Positions 4,221 through 24,585 of a DNA stretch of 30,721 bases are shown here, piece after piece. Within the stretch, counting starts at the first letter, position 1, and every line of letters begins with the position of its first letter. The notes beneath the pieces are model-generated. The model was not told the origin of the DNA and made no database searches. It worked only from the letters and a program-made list of their open reading frames with translations. Where the stretch lies: IMG/VR virus record IMGVR_UViG_3300044655_000748, positions 1-30,721 of that record; one strand, given 5' to 3'. The stretch comes from a virus. Made by a program: the position numbers and the translations under genes.

Positions 4221-4430
4221 TTATTTTAACCAATTTTTACAATCTTTTAATGACTTAGCAAAAAAAGCTCTATTAATTTCGTCAGTTCCTAAACCGAAAA
4301 CAACTTGCCAAGCTTTTGATAAACAATTATCGTTTGGTTGATATATAATATTACCCTCGATAAATTTTCCTGTCCAAGTATCTAAACCTTTAAATTCGTA
4401 GTTTCCGTTTGATAATTTAGTGTAAGTCAT
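4221..4430 (-). CDS. Small protein of unknown function, first gene of the accessory operon (69 aa)
   Basis: It begins MTYTKLSNGNYEFKGLDTWTG, a beta-rich N-terminus, and ends in a helix (INRAFFAKSLKDCKNWLK). It is AT-rich relative to the virion genes. The ATG at 4430 follows an A-rich leader about 30 bases downstream of the clearest promoter in the window (4466-4496), so it is probably the first gene of the transcript running to 766. I cannot name a family. Confidence 0.65.
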   Translation of the reverse strand: MTYTKLSNGNYEFKGLDTWTGKFIEGNIIYQPNDNCLSKAWQVVFGLGTDEINRAFFAKSLKDCKNWLK

Positions 4431-4465: not shown

Positions 4466-4496
4466 CAAATATATAACAAGAAATTAATTAAACAAC
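4466..4496 (-). promoter_or_regulatory. Bacteroidota-type promoter of the accessory/SSB operon
   Basis: On the minus strand GTTG (4493-4496), 19 bases, then TATATTTG (4466-4473), match the Bacteroidota consensus TTG-N17-23-TAnnTTTG. It lies in the AT-rich 111-base gap between the lysis cassette and the gene starting at 4430, with about 30 bases of leader. The rest of this gap shows no clear terminator for the lysis genes. Confidence 0.75.
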
Positions 4497-9791: not shown

Positions 9792-11684
9792 TTACATGTC
9801 GTGAGGCGCAATGTACGCTTTAGGGTTATTTGTTGGAGCAATTTCTCCCGCTTTTCTAACTTCAGCTGGAGTTGATGGTTGTGCGGCGGTATTTTTACCT
9901 GTTCCTATTTTTCTATACATTTCGCGAACCCAAAAATGTTTACATGTTCCGAATGGAAAAGCCTCACTTTGTAAGCCTCCACCTTTCCAAAGGAAGATAT
10001 CATAAGGCTGATTTGGGTTTGGATGCATCCCAAATCCAGGGTTAACGTTTCTTGTACTCATTAACTCAATATCCTCTTTTCGATACAATTTATTTGCTTT
10101 TATCATTGCTTTGCAAAATGCTCGTTCTGGATTTGGGTTTCCGCTATAACGATAACGAGTAATATACAATTTTGTGTCTTGCTCAGATACGCTTTTAGTT
10201 CTCGCTACACCTGTTGAAACGCTATCTAAAGCGACTTTCATTAGTTTAGTACTAACGTTATTTAAACGCTCAACCTCAGCGTCAAGCTCGGCCTCCTTAT
10301 CGTAGTCCACCGCTTCTGCGCTTATAAGTTCCCATTCGTTTAAATCAATGTCCTCGCCTAAGTCGTCAAAGCCTTGGTTTGACAACTGCGTAACCGCTGC
10401 GGCCTGTTGCGAAAATAACGCTTGAGCCACTTGAGCGGGAATGTTTAAGAATTGAACTAAGAAAACAATCGCTTGCTCGGTTGTTAAAATACCCTCTTTT
10501 ACTTTGGCGAATATGTCAATTGCTGACGAAATTTGTGCGCCGTTGTAAGAAACTGCCGCGTCGCTTGTTGCTTTATCAAGGCCGCCATCAGTTACGGCAA
10601 CTACATCCTCAGCTCTTAACGATTCAAATTGTAAGTCCAAAGTAATGCCATTAACGGCAAAAATCTCCATCAATCCGTCGAGTATAATCTCTTGCTTTGG
10701 TCTGATTACGTTGATCATTAACTCCTCAAATCCAACTTTAATTTCCTCAGCGTTTGAGCTAAACCCGCTCGATTCTTTTACTCCTACAAGCATTGGCGAT
10801 GTAAGTTTGTGAGCCGTGCAAAGTTGTTGTCTTGCCTCAGTACTTAAATAGGCATATTGTTGGTGTGCGTCGCTAACTTCCAAAGCGGAAATTGTAATCT
10901 CGGAGTCTTTGTTGTCGTTCCAATTTAAAAAGAATGCACCCGCGTTTTGTGATCCTGTTAAGTGGTTACGGATTTGGCGTGTATTCTCTTGGATTGTTTC
11001 AATTGACTCTTGTACTCCAGCGTTCATGTTAATAATATGGCCGAAGCTCAACCCTTTTTGAATATGGTTGATTGAGTAGTTTGAAATTTCCTCCTCCATT
11101 TTGGCCCAACTAATCCCCGACACATACGAAGGATTTGAATAGTAAAACTGCCCAACTTGGTAATCACGAATAATGTAAATTTCTGAGCGTTCGCCCATTC
11201 CTTCGCCGTATCCAAATGCGTCGATTCGTTCGGGTTTATATTTGTTTACGTTTGCAAAGTCGTAGCTATAATAGTATCCTGTTATATCGCCCTCCTCGTT
11301 TGCAACTTCTGGAGCAATTCGTTGTTTGGCTACGTGAAAACATCTTTGGATTTTGCCATTTAAATATTTTACTTCCAGTGAAGCCTCTCCAAACATCTCG
11401 AAATCCTTGCATATTTTACGTAAATCTTTTTTTGAAACGAGCGAAATGATCGCCGCCCATTCTGATGGCTTGCGTGACTTGTCTTTTGAGGTCAATCCTT
11501 TACCATAAATGAACTGCGAATAACTATCAATAATCGCCGAGTTTGTAGGCGATCCGTTATAGGCGTCAATAATGACTTGATAAAACGAGTTTTTGTCTCC
11601 ATTTAATACCCACTTTTTACCCGACACCTCTTTAATCTCGGGGCGAATGTAATTCGATAGGTTTATAATTTGTAATTTTTCCAT
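9792..11684 (-). CDS. Portal protein with C-terminal extension
   Basis: The 630-residue protein has the build of siphophage portals. The N-terminal part includes SPTNSAIIDSYSQFIYGKG and an alpha/beta wing. A helical crown follows, with STEARQQLCTAHKLTSPMLVG and NAEEIKVGFEELMINVIRPKQ, the usual stem region. Portals form the dodecameric DNA gate at one capsid vertex. From about residue 520 there is an extra domain (YITRYRYSGNPNPERAFCK, then FPFGTCKHFWVREMYRK) with Cys/His residues, like domains of minor head proteins fused to portals in this phage group. The gene lies downstream of the capsid and tail-tube genes, whereas portals usually precede the capsid gene. Confidence 0.82.
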   Translation of the reverse strand: MEKLQIINLSNYIRPEIKEVSGKKWVLNGDKNSFYQVIIDAYNGSPTNSAIIDSYSQFIYGKGLTSKDKSRKPSEWAAIISLVSKKDLRKICKDFEMFGEASLEVKYLNGKIQRCFHVAKQRIAPEVANEEGDITGYYYSYDFANVNKYKPERIDAFGYGEGMGERSEIYIIRDYQVGQFYYSNPSYVSGISWAKMEEEISNYSINHIQKGLSFGHIINMNAGVQESIETIQENTRQIRNHLTGSQNAGAFFLNWNDNKDSEITISALEVSDAHQQYAYLSTEARQQLCTAHKLTSPMLVGVKESSGFSSNAEEIKVGFEELMINVIRPKQEIILDGLMEIFAVNGITLDLQFESLRAEDVVAVTDGGLDKATSDAAVSYNGAQISSAIDIFAKVKEGILTTEQAIVFLVQFLNIPAQVAQALFSQQAAAVTQLSNQGFDDLGEDIDLNEWELISAEAVDYDKEAELDAEVERLNNVSTKLMKVALDSVSTGVARTKSVSEQDTKLYITRYRYSGNPNPERAFCKAMIKANKLYRKEDIELMSTRNVNPGFGMHPNPNQPYDIFLWKGGGLQSEAFPFGTCKHFWVREMYRKIGTGKNTAAQPSTPAEVRKAGEIAPTNNPKAYIAPHDM

Positions 11685-11687
11685 AAA

Positions 11688-11996
11688 TTATACTTTTAGA
11701 ACTCCGTTATTGAGTTCAAAATTCTCTAAGTCAGTCTGAGCCGTTGCGTAAGCCTTGCCTCTATAAATTAAATTGTCATCCTCGTTGATTGTAACTTCAA
11801 ACGATTGGCCCTCCTTCATGATCGGCTCGTCAAATACCAAAACTAACACGTTATTTTGGTAATATACGCCAGTAACGGCGATTTCGTGAGTGATGTCTCG
11901 CGTTTCATCACGCAATAAAAACGTGATTTCGCCACTATCGTAGCCTCTCGGAATGCATCGGAATTGATAAGGCGCAGTTAAATTGAATATCCACAT
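11688..11996 (-). CDS. Beta-rich virion-associated protein of unknown function (102 aa)
   Basis: The protein (start MWIFNLTAPYQFRCIPRGYD) is made of predicted short strands with acidic turns (FLLRDETRDITHEIAVTGVYY, then VLVFDEPIMKEGQSFEVTI). It lies between the tail-tube terminator and the portal, so a structural role is likely. It might be a small baseplate or decoration protein, but I do not recognise the family. Its start codon is preceded by the shared leader motif (12004-12026), as for the chaperone and protease genes. Confidence 0.6.
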   Translation of the reverse strand: MWIFNLTAPYQFRCIPRGYDSGEITFLLRDETRDITHEIAVTGVYYQNNVLVLVFDEPIMKEGQSFEVTINEDDNLIYRGKAYATAQTDLENFELNNGVLKV

Positions 11997-12003
11997 ACTA
12001 TAT

Positions 12004-12026
12004 TAACTGAAAAATAGTGTTTTGTA
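12004..12026 (-). promoter_or_regulatory. Shared structural-gene leader motif, copy B
   Basis: On the minus strand the 23 bases read TACAAAACA, then CTATTTTT, then CAGTTA, and end exactly 7 bases before the ATG at 11996. The same element stands 7 bases before the starts at 21898 and 14660. Here it follows directly after the terminator at 12028-12054, so it may hold a promoter with a very short leader. Confidence 0.6.
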
Positions 12027-12027
12027 A

Positions 12028-12054
12028 CAAAAAACGCCCCAATAAGGAGCGTTT
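12028..12054 (-). terminator. Intrinsic terminator after the tail-tube gene
   Basis: On the minus strand AAACGCTCC (12054-12046) pairs with GGGGCGTTT (12040-12032) over 9 bp with one G-T pair. The loop has 5 bases, and the T-run continues to about 12029. It lies about 22 bases after the tail-tube stop. Confidence 0.9.
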
Positions 12055-12654: not shown

Positions 12655-13557
12655 TTATGCTTCGTAAGTCAAGTAAACAATTTCCTCAGCGTTGTAGTAT
12701 CCAACACCAACGTTGTAAACTACCTTGCCGCGAACTTTACCAGTCAATAGACCGATTTCGTCTTCGTCTACCAAAGCAACTTGATTGTGGTCAGCAGTTA
12801 AACCAGTAGCGAATACTAAGTTTTTACGCTCGTAAATAACTACGGTGTTTGCAGGCAATCCGTTTAATACGGTCATTGTGTGACGTCCGAAAGTTAAAGC
12901 GAAGTCAGTATTTCCGTTTCCGTAAACGATACCTTGAGTTGACAAGTAGAAAGCATAGTATTGAGCAACGTCAGGAGATACTGCAAATACTAAATCTTTA
13001 TTTCTCAAAGCGATTGGCACGGCAGCTAAAGCAGGTTTCAAATACTTAGCCAAAACGTTTGACTCAGAAACAACAGCGTCAGCAGTTGGCTTGTTTACGT
13101 CATCATCGTCAGCAAATAAAGTTAAGAAACCGTCGAAATTTGTTGATGACTGCCAAATGTCAGTTTCCAATTTCTCTCCGATAGCACCCAAAACCTCAGC
13201 TTGGATAGCGTCCATGATGTCAGAAGGAGCGGTAGGGTTTGCAGCACCTGCGCCCATGATTCCATCAGACCAAGTAGCACGGAAATCTTCTTTACAAACG
13301 TCAAAATCGTTTTTGAATTTGAAAGGCTCGATTAAGTTTTCGTTTAATACGATTGTCCCAGCAGGAGCAAATCCGCAAGTGTATGCAGTTGTTCCGTCAG
13401 TATAAGCGATTTTACGCAAAGACAATTTGTAGTTTACATTTTCAGCGATAGTTACCGCATTTTTTTCGATAGTGTCAATCGTTTTGAACGCTTGACCAAT
13501 AATTACGCCCGCATCGCGGCCAGCATAATTTGAACTTACTGTAGTTGTAGTAGGCAT
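12655..13557 (-). CDS. Major capsid protein
   Basis: The 300-residue protein lies directly after the maturation protease and is followed by a terminator, as expected for a highly expressed shell protein. It has an N-terminal arm-like segment (MPTTTTVSSNYAGRD), an Ala/Asp-rich middle part (DIMDAIQAEVLGAIGEKLETDIW) and a central ALAAVPIALRNKDLVFAVSP stretch. The C-terminal strands include YERKNLVFATGLTADHNQVAL and VRGKVVYNVGVGYYNAEEI. These fit an HK97-type coat subunit in length and order, but no single invariant motif defines the fold. The start ATG shares its last base with the protease stop. Codons are more regular than in the neighbours, a mark of strong expression. Confidence 0.82.
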   Translation of the reverse strand: MPTTTTVSSNYAGRDAGVIIGQAFKTIDTIEKNAVTIAENVNYKLSLRKIAYTDGTTAYTCGFAPAGTIVLNENLIEPFKFKNDFDVCKEDFRATWSDGIMGAGAANPTAPSDIMDAIQAEVLGAIGEKLETDIWQSSTNFDGFLTLFADDDDVNKPTADAVVSESNVLAKYLKPALAAVPIALRNKDLVFAVSPDVAQYYAFYLSTQGIVYGNGNTDFALTFGRHTMTVLNGLPANTVVIYERKNLVFATGLTADHNQVALVDEDEIGLLTGKVRGKVVYNVGVGYYNAEEIVYLTYEA

Positions 13558-14660
13558 TAGTTTAAGTTTTTAAGATTATTTTGAATTTTTTGTGTTCTTG
13601 TCAATTTGACATTTGAATTTGAAACCTCTTTAACTTCGGGTTTCGCTTTTGTTGAAGCCTTAACCTCAACTTGAGAAGTTTTAACCTCAGCGATTTGTGA
13701 GCTTAACTCAGTTCTTACCGCTTCGATTTGTTTAGCAACTTCAACGCTCATTGATGTAACGATTGATTTTACTAACTCCGCGAATTGATCCTCTTTGGAC
13801 ATTTCAACGTCAGCCTCAACAGTCACTTCAACTTCGGTCTCAGCCTCCATTTCTTTTATTTCGGCGATCATACCTTCTTCGGTAATTACCAAAATTCTAC
13901 CGTCTTCAAGTTCGTGTTCTCCGATTGGAGCAGGAACTTTGTCTCCGTTTTCAGCCACAATAAAAACAGGTTGCCCCGCTTCAAATGATTCAGCCTCCAA
14001 AACGGTAACACCATCTTTGAGCATCATGGTCGACATAGTCACTTCCACTTGCTCAGTCTCGTTCGATAACTTTACCGAAGCGAAACCGTCTTTTATCGCG
14101 TTAACGATTTCATTTAAATTCATACTATATTCACTTTTTAAATTTACTTTCTCCATATCAAAAACCCCATCAATTGAGAAGCCTTTGACTTTGCCTGTTT
14201 TAACGTAGTTGTTCCAAATGTCCTCGTTGTTTACTTTCATAGCAGCAAACCACGTTCCAACTGGTTCGTTAAATCCGTACATCGTTGATTTGTCGTGTAC
14301 CTCGTCTTCTTTTATCCACGTTTCAACAAAAGTTACATCCTCGATTTGTGTACCCGAATGCTCAATCGTTGAGTTGTTCTGATATCCTTGACGACTGAAA
14401 TTTTGTTGCACTTGCTTAATCGTTTCCGCAGGGAATACGATGTTAAATTCGTGGCCGTCTTGGTTGCGATAGATTGGTTGGTTTGGTATCAATACCGCGC
14501 CTAACAAAATACGCTGCTCCTCGTTTATGGTTGCGAGTTGTATCTCTTTTTGTTGTGACAAAGTGATAAACTGCACTCCAATTGCAGGATCGGATACGAG
14601 TGAAACGGCATAAACGCCCTCGTTATCTTCCTCATTAAACATTACTTTGTAAGTGTCCAT
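13557..14660 (-). CDS. Prohead maturation protease (XkdF-like) fused to a scaffold-like tail
   Basis: Residues 1-165 resemble XkdF-type phage serine proteases. The start (YKVMFNEEDNEGVYAVSLVSDPAI) is typical. The likely catalytic His is H101 (STIEH) and the Ser is S162 (VKGFSIDG). Such proteases cut the scaffold and coat N-termini during head maturation. Residues 170-367 are acidic and then coiled-coil and Lys-rich (MEAETEVEVTVEADVEMSKE, then ELVKSIVTSMSVEVAKQIEA), the composition of a scaffolding protein, so protease and scaffold seem joined in one chain. The ATG at 14660 is preceded by the shared leader motif at 14668-14690. Confidence 0.82.
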   Translation of the reverse strand: MDTYKVMFNEEDNEGVYAVSLVSDPAIGVQFITLSQQKEIQLATINEEQRILLGAVLIPNQPIYRNQDGHEFNIVFPAETIKQVQQNFSRQGYQNNSTIEHSGTQIEDVTFVETWIKEDEVHDKSTMYGFNEPVGTWFAAMKVNNEDIWNNYVKTGKVKGFSIDGVFDMEKVNLKSEYSMNLNEIVNAIKDGFASVKLSNETEQVEVTMSTMMLKDGVTVLEAESFEAGQPVFIVAENGDKVPAPIGEHELEDGRILVITEEGMIAEIKEMEAETEVEVTVEADVEMSKEDQFAELVKSIVTSMSVEVAKQIEAVRTELSSQIAEVKTSQVEVKASTKAKPEVKEVSNSNVKLTRTQKIQNNLKNLN

Positions 14661-14667
14661 ACCCTAA

Positions 14668-14690
14668 TAACTGATTTTTAATTGTTTGTT
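14668..14690 (-). promoter_or_regulatory. Shared structural-gene leader motif, copy C
   Basis: On the minus strand the element reads AACAAACA, then ATTAAAAAT, then CAGTTA, exactly 7 bases before the ATG at 14660. It is the most diverged of the three copies, but the CAGTTA core and the spacing are kept. Confidence 0.5.
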
Positions 14691-14706
14691 ATAAACTTTT
14701 TTTCGT

Positions 14707-21156: not shown

Positions 21157-21413
21157 TATTTCATTTGTTTTTTAATTTGCTTGGCTTCCTCCAAAGACTC
21201 GTCGATTAGGTAAGATAGTAGCGTGAGTGATTCATGAAGAGGCTCTTTTCCCACATCTCGAACGTGGATTCTAAGTTCACGCGACAATCGAACAAAGCTT
21301 TGATACCAACCCCAGCGTTCTCCAAAATTTCCTCCAAATTCAGTCCCTCCCTCGCTGCTTTGTCCTCCAAATGCGATAGGGTATTGCTCAACAATTCCTT
21401 GTTTAAAGTCCAA
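21156..21413 (-). CDS. Second frame of the tail assembly chaperone (made by -1 frameshift)
   Basis: The frame continues from the T-run at 21412-21420 in the -1 register relative to the 230-residue ORF. Its first codons read TTG GAC TTT AAA, and the 85-residue product contains ERWGWYQSFVRLSRELRI and KEPLHESLTLLSYLIDES. That Trp-Tyr, then Leu-Ser-Tyr-Leu pattern is common in frameshift extensions of tail chaperones. Its TAA overlaps the ATG of the tail terminator gene. It probably has no start of its own but is expressed as a 247-residue fusion (162 + 85 residues), the counterpart of lambda gpGT. The alternative is a homopolymer sequencing error. Confidence 0.65.
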   Translation of the reverse strand: MDFKQGIVEQYPIAFGGQSSEGGTEFGGNFGERWGWYQSFVRLSRELRIHVRDVGKEPLHESLTLLSYLIDESLEEAKQIKKQMK

Positions 21414-21898
21414 AAAAAAAGCATCGAGCCAACCACAACATCCATTGTGACATCCTTATAAAAATCAGCCTTGCTTTCGTCGCCATCGTACTCTTCAATT
21501 TCATAAAATTCGCCTGCCTTTCGTTTAATTGGTCTATAAAGTACCGACATTAAAAGCGGTATGTTTTCGTCAGTTCCGAGAAGCGTGTCAATCGTTGCGT
21601 GTTCGCCGAGTGTAATCTTATCAAAATTTGGTATAAATCCGTAGTGAACGCCATTCATTTTGAACGTGCGAACGAGCTTTGGCTTTTGATCCAAAACTTT
21701 TGCAAGAGTCTCAATAATATCAGTAAAATCATTAACAGGTATTTTCATTACATCGGCAACAGTTAGGTTGCAAAATATCGCCACCATTTGAATGCAAACG
21801 AAGGTCTCATCGTCTAAATTGTCCTTTAATACCTTTTGATAACGTTGGTATTGCGATAATTTTATCTCGCTTAGTGATGTTGGGATTACTACTCTCAT
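21206..21898 (-). CDS. Tail assembly chaperone (zero-frame product)
   Basis: The 230-residue protein starts MRVVIPTSLSEIKLSQYQRY, followed by QMVAIFCNLTVADVMKIPVND. This 'PTSLSEI-L-QYQ' opening is usual for tail chaperones of Bacteroidota phages, which coat the tape measure before tube assembly. At codons 160-162 the gene crosses CTT TTT TTT TGG, a perfect T-TTT-TTT slippery site, where a -1 shift gives the longer product. Unusually, the zero frame stays open for 68 more codons (WTLNKELLSNTLSHLEDKAA and on) inside the second frame. The ATG is preceded by the shared leader motif (21906-21928). The gene follows the large terminase, with a 168-base gap holding repeats. Confidence 0.75.
   Translation of the reverse strand: MRVVIPTSLSEIKLSQYQRYQKVLKDNLDDETFVCIQMVAIFCNLTVADVMKIPVNDFTDIIETLAKVLDQKPKLVRTFKMNGVHYGFIPNFDKITLGEHATIDTLLGTDENIPLLMSVLYRPIKRKAGEFYEIEEYDGDESKADFYKDVTMDVVVGSMLFFWTLNKELLSNTLSHLEDKAAREGLNLEEILENAGVGIKALFDCRVNLESTFEMWEKSLFMNHSRYYLT
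21411..21421 (-). other. Programmed -1 ribosomal frameshift site
   Basis: On the minus strand nine consecutive T (21420-21412) follow C21421 and precede GGAC. In the zero frame the codons are CTT TTT TTT TGG, so the heptamer T TTT TTT is in register for -1 slippage into TTG GAC TTT. No strong stimulatory hairpin is visible just downstream. Confidence 0.65.
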
Positions 21899-21905
21899 AC
21901 TTATA

Positions 21906-21928
21906 TAACTGAAAAATGTTGTTTTGTT
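21906..21928 (-). promoter_or_regulatory. Shared structural-gene leader motif, copy A
   Basis: On the minus strand it reads AACAAAACA, then ACATTTTT, then CAGTTA, exactly 7 bases before the ATG at 21898. It matches copy B at 19 of 23 positions. It has no TAnnTTTG element, so it may be a phage-specific promoter or a translation element. Confidence 0.6.
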
Positions 21929-21943
21929 TATTTTTTAAGTGAT

Positions 21944-21964
21944 AATCAATTTTTATAATTGATT
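21944..21964. repeat. Inverted repeat upstream of the chaperone gene
   Basis: AATCAATT and AATTGATT form 8-bp arms around 5 bases. There is no following T-run in either direction, so an operator is more likely than a terminator. Its near edge is 45 bases before the start codon, the same layout as the palindrome at 14707-14726. Confidence 0.55.
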
Positions 21965-21970
21965 TTCATA

Positions 21971-22064
21971 CCCTATCGGGTGTCATTTTCGGAAAAATTC
22001 ATGCACTTGTACCATATCGGGTGTTTGCTATTGTATGCAAAATTTGGAAAAATTCATGCACTTG
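21971..22064. repeat. Two-part direct repeat just downstream of the large terminase gene
   Basis: The word GGAAAAATTCATGCACTTG (19 bases) occurs at 21991-22009 and 22046-22064. Each copy is preceded by a second shared word, CC(C/A)TATCGGGTGT (21971-21983 and 22012-22024), with 7 and 21 bases between the parts. No gene covers this stretch. Possible roles are a packaging (cos/pac) site, a binding site for the small terminase, or an operator for the tail genes. Confidence 0.85.
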
Positions 22065-22066
22065 CC

Positions 22067-23809: not shown

Positions 23810-24173
23810 AATTTGATAGTTTGTTGAGGTCTTTTATTATTTGCTCGTGTACCTTTGAACAGGTTGGGCAGTTGCTATTGTCTAAACCAAAGTATTTGAG
23901 ATATAAGGCGTTTAAATAGGTCACGTCGTCTAAGTTTAACTCAGTACGTTTTCCATCGAGTACGCGTTGCCCTTTAGGCTCAAGGAATGTTTTAAACGAT
24001 TCTTTGTCTTCTGCTGACATCTCGCTTTTAACTCTTTTGAAGTTAAATAAACGATTCAGTCCAAATTGACGCTCTTTGCAACCTTGACAAGGCTCAATAC
24101 CAACTGAGTTGGTTATGTTAGCGATTACATCGCCAAGACCTTGAATTTCTTTTTTAGTCCTTCTTTTTGCCAT
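23799..24173 (-). CDS. Four-cysteine (zinc-binding) phage protein
   Basis: The 124-residue protein has two CxxC pairs, C29/C32 (EPCQGCKERQ) and C102/C105 (SNCPTCSKVH), likely joined around one zinc ion. Its N-terminus is basic (MAKRRTKKEIQGLGDVIANI). I know the element 'GIEPC-GCKERQ--LN' from small proteins in Bacteroidota phages next to terminase genes, of unknown function. A role in DNA binding or packaging is a guess. It overlaps the sigma-like gene by 20 bases. Confidence 0.72.
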   Translation of the reverse strand: MAKRRTKKEIQGLGDVIANITNSVGIEPCQGCKERQFGLNRLFNFKRVKSEMSAEDKESFKTFLEPKGQRVLDGKRTELNLDDVTYLNALYLKYFGLDNSNCPTCSKVHEQIIKDLNKLSNYGG

Positions 24174-24585
24174 AAATTTTTGATTTTACCATCTTATTGA
24201 TCCGATGGATTGTTTGAATATGTATGCCTGTTTGTCGGCTGAGTTCACGTTGACCGACTAAAGTTGAAAGCTCAAACATTGTGCGCTCATACCAAGTTAA
24301 GCCTTTTATAAGGGCCTTGTAATCGATTGGCTCGATATAGTCTCCATCGTCTAAGATTTCGATATTACTAAAATCGATTATTAAATCCTTTTGCTGCTTA
24401 GTATAGTCATAGAATAAGTTTCTTAAAACTGTATAAATATAACCATCTTTGATTAGATTGGTATTTTGATACAATTTAAGATACATTTCCTGTACTAACT
24501 CGTCAGCCAAGTCCTTGTCTTTGCATATTTGGAAAGCCATCTTGCGCCATTGTGCGTCTTTTTTGGCTAACTCTGCCAGTATCAT
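24154..24585 (-). CDS. Sigma-70-like RNA polymerase sigma factor (phage)
   Basis: The 143-residue protein has a region 2-like helix (DKDLADELVQEMYLKLYQN, about 24-42) and a region 4-like helix-turn-helix (VGQRELSRQTGIHIQTIHRIN, about 110-130). The linker is acidic. Length and layout are those of ECF-type sigma factors, but shorter. Such proteins could redirect host RNA polymerase to phage late promoters. It lies just upstream of the packaging and virion genes and is the natural candidate to read the shared leader motif at 21906, 14668 and 12004. It overlaps its neighbours by 4 and 20 bases. Confidence 0.75.
   Translation of the reverse strand: MILAELAKKDAQWRKMAFQICKDKDLADELVQEMYLKLYQNTNLIKDGYIYTVLRNLFYDYTKQQKDLIIDFSNIEILDDGDYIEPIDYKALIKGLTWYERTMFELSTLVGQRELSRQTGIHIQTIHRINKMVKSKIYGKKKD

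Follow-up and report, generated by a model that had tools for sequence, protein, structure and literature searches.

Our results indicate that the late operons of this phage are probably driven by a phage-encoded ECF-like sigma factor, and that their mRNAs would be leaderless or nearly so, with predicted leaders of 0–2 nt. The analysis started from a stretch of viral DNA of 30,721 nt (IMG/VR record IMGVR_UViG_3300044655_000748, hereafter the window), in which a two-block element stands directly in front of three genes. We propose that this element is a late promoter used by the host RNA polymerase together with the protein encoded at 24154-24585, the C-terminal domain of which would contact a -35-like ACAAA/AACAAA block while its region 2 would contact a -10-like (A/C)GTTATA block, and that the RNA would begin on the first base of the ATG or no more than about 2 nt away. 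As the -10 block keeps a distance of 7 nt (rarely 8) to the start codon, an RNA start at or near this A is expected; the absence of a leader and the exact +1 are thus predictions from position, and the lateness of the promoters is suggested by the content of the genes behind them.

All three elements lie on the minus strand. Element A (21899..21931) has ACAAA at 21923-21927, within ATAAACAAAA, AGTTATA at 21904-21910 and a T at -1 (21899), with the predicted +1 at the A of the ATG, 21898. Element B (14661..14696) has ACAAA at 14685-14689, within GTTTATAACAAA, AGTTATT at 14666-14672 and a T at -1 (predicted +1 at 14660, the first base of the ATG), and element C (11997..12031) has ACAAA at 12021-12025, within TTTTTTGTTACAAA, AGTTAAT at 12002-12008 and a T at -1 (predicted +1 at 11996, again the first base of the ATG). 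The initial annotation had described these elements as 23-base copies at 21906-21928, 14668-14690 and 12004-12026, and we confirmed all three, on the minus strand and exactly 7 nt from the ATG. Its consensus, AACAAAACA-N8-CAGTTA, is exact at 21906-21928 and inexact at the other two copies, with one mismatch in the 12004 copy (TACAAAACA) and two in the 14668 copy (AACAAACAA). By our recount the 21906 and 12004 copies agree at 20 of 23 positions rather than the 19 given earlier, and the 21906 and 14668 copies are identical at 15 of 23. The Bacteroidetes housekeeping promoter element TAnnTTTG (consensus taken from PMC6847099), looked for at -7, was not found in any of the three window elements, as that annotation had noted. 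The T-run that it had seen next to the 12004 copy belongs to an intrinsic-terminator-like hairpin of 9 pairs (12032..12054, minus strand), of which it forms the tail; this tail enters element C and overlaps the TTTTTTGTTACAAA that holds its -35-like block, so that the end of one operon and the start of the next would lie within about 60 nt.

Several other features were observed around these elements. Upstream of element A, at 21960-22066 on the minus strand, there are direct repeats, namely two copies of AGTGCATGAATTTTTCC and two of ACACCCGATA followed by GGTA. In the window and its relatives, elements A and B are repeatedly preceded at close range by inverted repeats of varying sequence, for example TTTCAATC-TAAA-GATTGAAA ahead of the window's element B and ATTGTACG-TAATAA-CGTACAAT ahead of element A in the related genome L134, and these are possible terminators or binding sites. 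Elsewhere in the window a host-type promoter-like TATATTTG (4466-4473, minus strand) is separated by about 35 nt from the start codon at 4430, which would make this a leadered unit in the same genome.

Gene A (21206..21898, minus strand; 230 aa) belongs to phrog_32199, of unknown function, and heads a putative late operon that extends to about 14762. Gene B (13557..14660, minus strand; 367 aa) encodes a prohead-type serine protease (PF14550, Peptidase_S78_2) and is followed by a member of phrog_11320 (12655-13557), which has the position and family of a putative major head protein. Gene C (11688..11996, minus strand; 102 aa) belongs to phrog_31097, also unknown, and the portal gene (9792-11684) comes next downstream. 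The ATG is the true start of these genes, since variation at third codon positions sets in directly after it, from codon 2 on, clearly for B and more weakly for A and C. Under the proposed mechanism, the leaderless or nearly leaderless units would run from 21898 to about 14762 for A, would cover the protease and head genes for B, and would cover gene C, the portal gene and the following genes for C. The element appears to be lost at gene A of one relative, L210, in which a further gene, of 74 aa, stands ahead of gene A; this loss is only apparent, as the element stands before the new first gene instead, and the element thus marks the operon head and not gene A itself. In two further relatives, L068 and L120, gene B has another ATG in frame and upstream of the element, which draws the automatic ORF caller to an earlier start, and starts in this phage group may be misplaced in annotation, the promoter then falling inside the gene.

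Loose patterns carry little weight in the window alone. The literal pattern with three mismatches occurs 6 times against 2.9 expected, which is not significant, and neither is CAGTTA-N7-ATG with one mismatch; a longer pattern searched in the own genome had no match, and a scan for sigma-70-type promoters found no more sites than in shuffled sequence. Significance was instead drawn from the relatives and from the two-block form of the element. There are exactly three matches to ACAAA-N10..14-CAGTTA in the window, every time 7 nt before an ATG, and in 200 dinucleotide shuffles the same pattern was met 0.22 times anywhere and 0.01 times with an ATG at 6 or 7 nt.

Orthologues of genes A, B and C were collected from IMG/VR and from the Nonlabens phage P12024S, and the motif singled out by the initial annotation proved to be shared: the same bipartite element is present in about 60 related freshwater phages, in front of orthologues of the same three genes, nearly all at the same distance, and reaching down to 57% protein identity or lower. 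Within the window family the spacing of the two blocks is constant, and clustering of all hits limited the full element in the window group to exactly three gene families, A, B and C. Among 2114 distinct upstream stretches, 137 bipartite matches were found before ORFs, with 97 at 7 nt and seven, all of them B-type elements, at 8 nt; the other 33 are at scattered distances, and some of these may be ORFs with their first ATG further upstream, as in gene B of L068 and L120. Host-type TAnnTTTG, by contrast, is spread across many distances in these stretches. [AC]GTTA gives a single sharp positional peak, with 85 instances at 7 nt over a scattered background. In L077, TGTTA lies 7 nt before the protease gene, and the sigma region 2 match of this genome is only partial.

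With the A of the ATG numbered +1, the core of the element in the window family consists of ACAAA at -29..-25, a T/A tract at -19..-14, (A/C)GTTATA at -12..-6 and a T at -1, which is present in 99% of cases; A and C at -29 and -28 reach 99% and 95%. The P12024S type has an A-rich, AAC-containing block at about -34..-27, in which the AAC at -32..-30 is conserved at 100%, 100% and 81%, CGTTAATA at -12..-5 and, mostly, a T at -1. G-11 and T-10 are found in 100% and T-9 in 87–100%, the GT partly by construction, as sites were chosen for GTTA, GTCT or GTTT at this distance. ECF sigma factors recognise AAC in the -35 and CGT in the -10 element (PMC4153023), and sigma-H promoters have GGAAYA at -34..-29, a 17-bp spacer and a required G-11 T-10 T-9 (PMC6411747). 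If the register is as in sigma-H, the GTT at -11..-9 places +1 on the A of the ATG, and with this +1 the AAC of the P12024S type falls at -32..-30, as in sigma-H. The -35-like block of the window family, at -30..-28, is 2 bases nearer than in sigma-H and P12024S, so either its spacer is shorter or its register slightly different.

The same sigma factor might also start transcription a few bases off, which would give a short leader or a start slightly inside the gene, and this variant is unlikely. The distance from the -10 element to the start varies by a base or two among sigma factors, and both this general variability and the seven B elements at 8 nt would suit a shifted start, as would the purine that is common at -2 in the window family. 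However, the fixed 7 nt and the near-invariant T at -1 point to the A as +1, and a shift of more than 1–2 nt would move the GTT out of the sigma-H register. We therefore prefer a start on the A of the ATG or within 2 nt of it. The initial annotation had foreseen a very short leader if the element is a promoter, and the leader predicted here, of about zero, comes even closer to the start codon.

The two blocks differ in how they vary. The surroundings of the -35-like block vary by gene (ATAAACAAA, GTTTATAACAAA and TTTTTTGTTACAAA) and are kept across clades, and the -10-like block varies by clade and is common to the three sites of one genome. When the -10 blocks were sorted into the classes CAGTTA, wAGTTA, CGTTA, AGTCT and CGTTT, with CAGTTA and wAGTTA pooled, 98 of 106 within-genome pairs agreed in class, against a mean of 57 and a maximum of 71 in 2000 shuffles; a few genomes mix AGTTA with AGTCT or CGTTA. 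Such concordance is as expected of one trans-acting reader, and supports one without proving it, being partly confounded by shared descent.

The candidate reader is a protein of 143 aa encoded at 24154..24585 on the minus strand, with sigma-70 region 2 (PF04542) and a C-terminal domain of helices where region 4 would be expected. PF04542 is matched above the cut-off (E 2.2e-6), and was also found in gp33 of P12024S; in addition, the protein matches a phage sigma family and, by profile, the sigma factor chain 5uxx (E 3.8e-4). In its structural model a linker of low confidence connects two helical domains (mean pLDDT 75.8, pTM 0.39, so that the domain arrangement is uncertain), with C-terminal helices at residues 98-110, 112-119 and 123-141 (pLDDT 78-92) in a part where region 4 is unmatched in Pfam. 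The top Foldseek matches of the model are ECF sigma factors, at a probability of 1.00 and an E-value of only about 2.5e-3. Judged by the model, the make-up of the protein would be that of ECF (group 4) sigma factors, with the places of regions 2 and 4 only and neither region 1.1 nor region 3 within its 143 aa. The sigma gene itself has no element upstream; this, together with its position upstream of the late block, fits earlier expression, and we propose that the sigma factor is made earlier, from other promoters.

The protein also accompanies the element in other genomes. A scan of IMG/VR with the motif only recovered several multi-hit contigs, and the sigma protein was found in three of the nine tested (G022, G023 and G028; E 1e-35 to 6e-47), the other six records being only 4–16 kb long; P12024L, a multi-hit record, has it as well. 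It was found in none of 19 single-hit records of 21–159 kb. Motif-bearing contigs in which no sigma gene was detected exist, and all of them are fragments. A sigma relative also occurs in the more distant records L080 and L074 (E 1.7e-13 and 6.2e-12), and an alignment-based sigma scan of IMG/VR yielded no loci beyond those already in the set. In L074, a record of 29,551 bases, the sigma relative is present and the protease gene lacks the element; GAGTTATTT precedes the ATG of two genes there, which start at 12723 and 23058 on the minus strand, GAGTTA stopping 8 nt short of the ATG, and is perhaps a further variant of the element.

The promoter might instead be used by a sigma factor of the host, ECF or other, or with the help of another phage activator, the phage sigma serving elsewhere, and we consider this improbable. 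Bacteroidota hosts have many ECF sigma factors, and the sigma function of the 24154-24585 protein is deduced from its fold and co-occurrence. However, it is the phages with multiple motif hits that have the sigma factor, which long single-hit records lack, and the bacterial genomes scanned for the protein gave just one weak match of 45 residues, in Caulobacter. The suggestion of the initial annotation that a late promoter is read by the phage sigma-like protein is supported by the conserved two-block spacing, the placement at operon heads, the concerted variation of the -10 block at three distant sites, the co-occurrence with an ECF-like sigma and the ECF promoter register.

The other option raised in that annotation, a translation-initiation signal in the mRNA leader that replaces Shine-Dalgarno pairing, is a weak rival with very little probability. 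The fixed distance to the ATG would suit it, and Bacteroidota are without Shine-Dalgarno signals and rely on upstream A-rich context (PMC6847099), their translation depending on features such as an A at -3 (PMC6847099). However, A at -3, a known determinant in Flavobacterium johnsoniae, the member of this bacterial group that has been studied, is present in just 53% of the elements, which stand only at operon-head genes and go with the operon head in L210; a -35-like block lies 25–29 nt ahead of the ATG, and both blocks match ECF promoter elements. A translation signal explains none of the spacing, the operon heads, the joint -10 change, the sigma co-occurrence and the ECF register. Chance resemblance, or a shared AT-rich context, is compatible with the loose patterns of the single window, but is made untenable, with virtually no probability left, by the shuffles, by conservation in about 60 genomes and by the independent recovery in the motif-only scan.

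The sigma protein and the element can be followed into the Nonlabens phages P12024S and P12024L (Inhavirus), which share with the window a homologous sigma factor (gp33 in P12024S), the protease (gp01) and the element. They differ in their -10 block, CGTTAATA, in a -35 block 2 bp further upstream, in a higher number of copies, and in the divergent small genes that adjoin several elements. In P12024S the element precedes seven genes, gp01, gp05, gp08, gp35, gp41, gp44 and gp45, with gp35 at 6 nt, and when nothing is assumed, the 5-mer that ranks first in this genome for a fixed distance is CGTTA, at 7 nt. Host-type -7 elements (TATATTTG, TAGATTTG) were also observed in P12024S (L081) at 2997, 5389, 23939 and 26760 (minus strand), on the opposite strand to the late elements of gp05, gp08, gp41 and gp45, which they overlap or abut, and right past the first three of these sites are the starts of gp04, gp07 and gp40, which are small and divergent. 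Such overlap could make early divergent and late transcription mutually exclusive; opposite-strand host-type overlap was not found at the three elements of the window.

The compact late switch proposed here would, if true, serve widespread freshwater and marine Bacteroidota phages, and would provide naturally leaderless mRNAs from a phylum without Shine-Dalgarno signals. The way in which the -10 block varies together with clade would likewise be a natural data set on specificity change in ECF-type sigma factors. F. johnsoniae transcripts have leaders of 33 nt on average, and of more than 10 nt in 87% (PMC6847099), so phage late units would enter the ribosome differently from the usual host mRNAs. 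A broader reading, on which we are evenly divided, is that the late regulon of the whole group consists of promoter-plus-start-codon modules, in which the phage ECF-like sigma makes only leaderless mRNAs of virion genes in hosts that normally translate leadered mRNAs without Shine-Dalgarno signals, late synthesis being set apart by both promoter and ribosome entry. As P12024S and P12024L are cultured, mapping of 5' ends would be direct.

Regulons of phage sigma factors have been described, as have phage mRNAs that lack a leader; the fixed fusion of such a promoter to the start codon appears undescribed in the open-access literature. In that literature we found no papers on promoters of this phage group, and the promoters of P12024S are apparently not treated in the papers that name this phage. 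The middle and late transcripts of the Thermus phage phiYS40 are leaderless. The late mRNAs proposed here would share this lack of a leader with phiYS40, an unrelated phage of an unrelated host, which directs its host to translate leaderless mRNAs, with IF2 up and IF3 down (reviewed in PMC3594737), and leaderless phage mRNAs are the subject of a general remark in the AR9 paper (PMC5312081). The passages considered on phiEco32 and 7-11 (PMC4331800) describe, similarly, a phage sigma that sends host polymerase to a few conserved structural-gene promoters, the middle and late promoters of this sigma having been found by comparison of intergenic regions; these are other phages in other hosts, they also encode an anti-sigma factor, and those passages report neither a fixed start-codon fusion nor an absence of leaders.

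Among cellular genes, the leaderless genes of Actinobacteria and Deinococcus-Thermus also have a -10 element set so that transcription starts at the start codon, although the -10 there is Pribnow-like, and leaderless genes were detectable in just 1 of 37 Bacteroidetes/Chlorobi genomes (PMC3160421). ECF promoters, such as those of M. tuberculosis sigma-H, have the same AAC-type -35 and CGT/GTT-type -10 at an equal distance from +1 (PMC6411747, PMC4153023). ECF-type promoters have a rigid spacer near 16–17 bp; the spacer of the P12024S type fits that of sigma-H, whereas that of the window family is about 2 bp shorter but constant. Finally, ECF promoters serve cellular regulons, whereas the elements of the phage are tied to a start codon.
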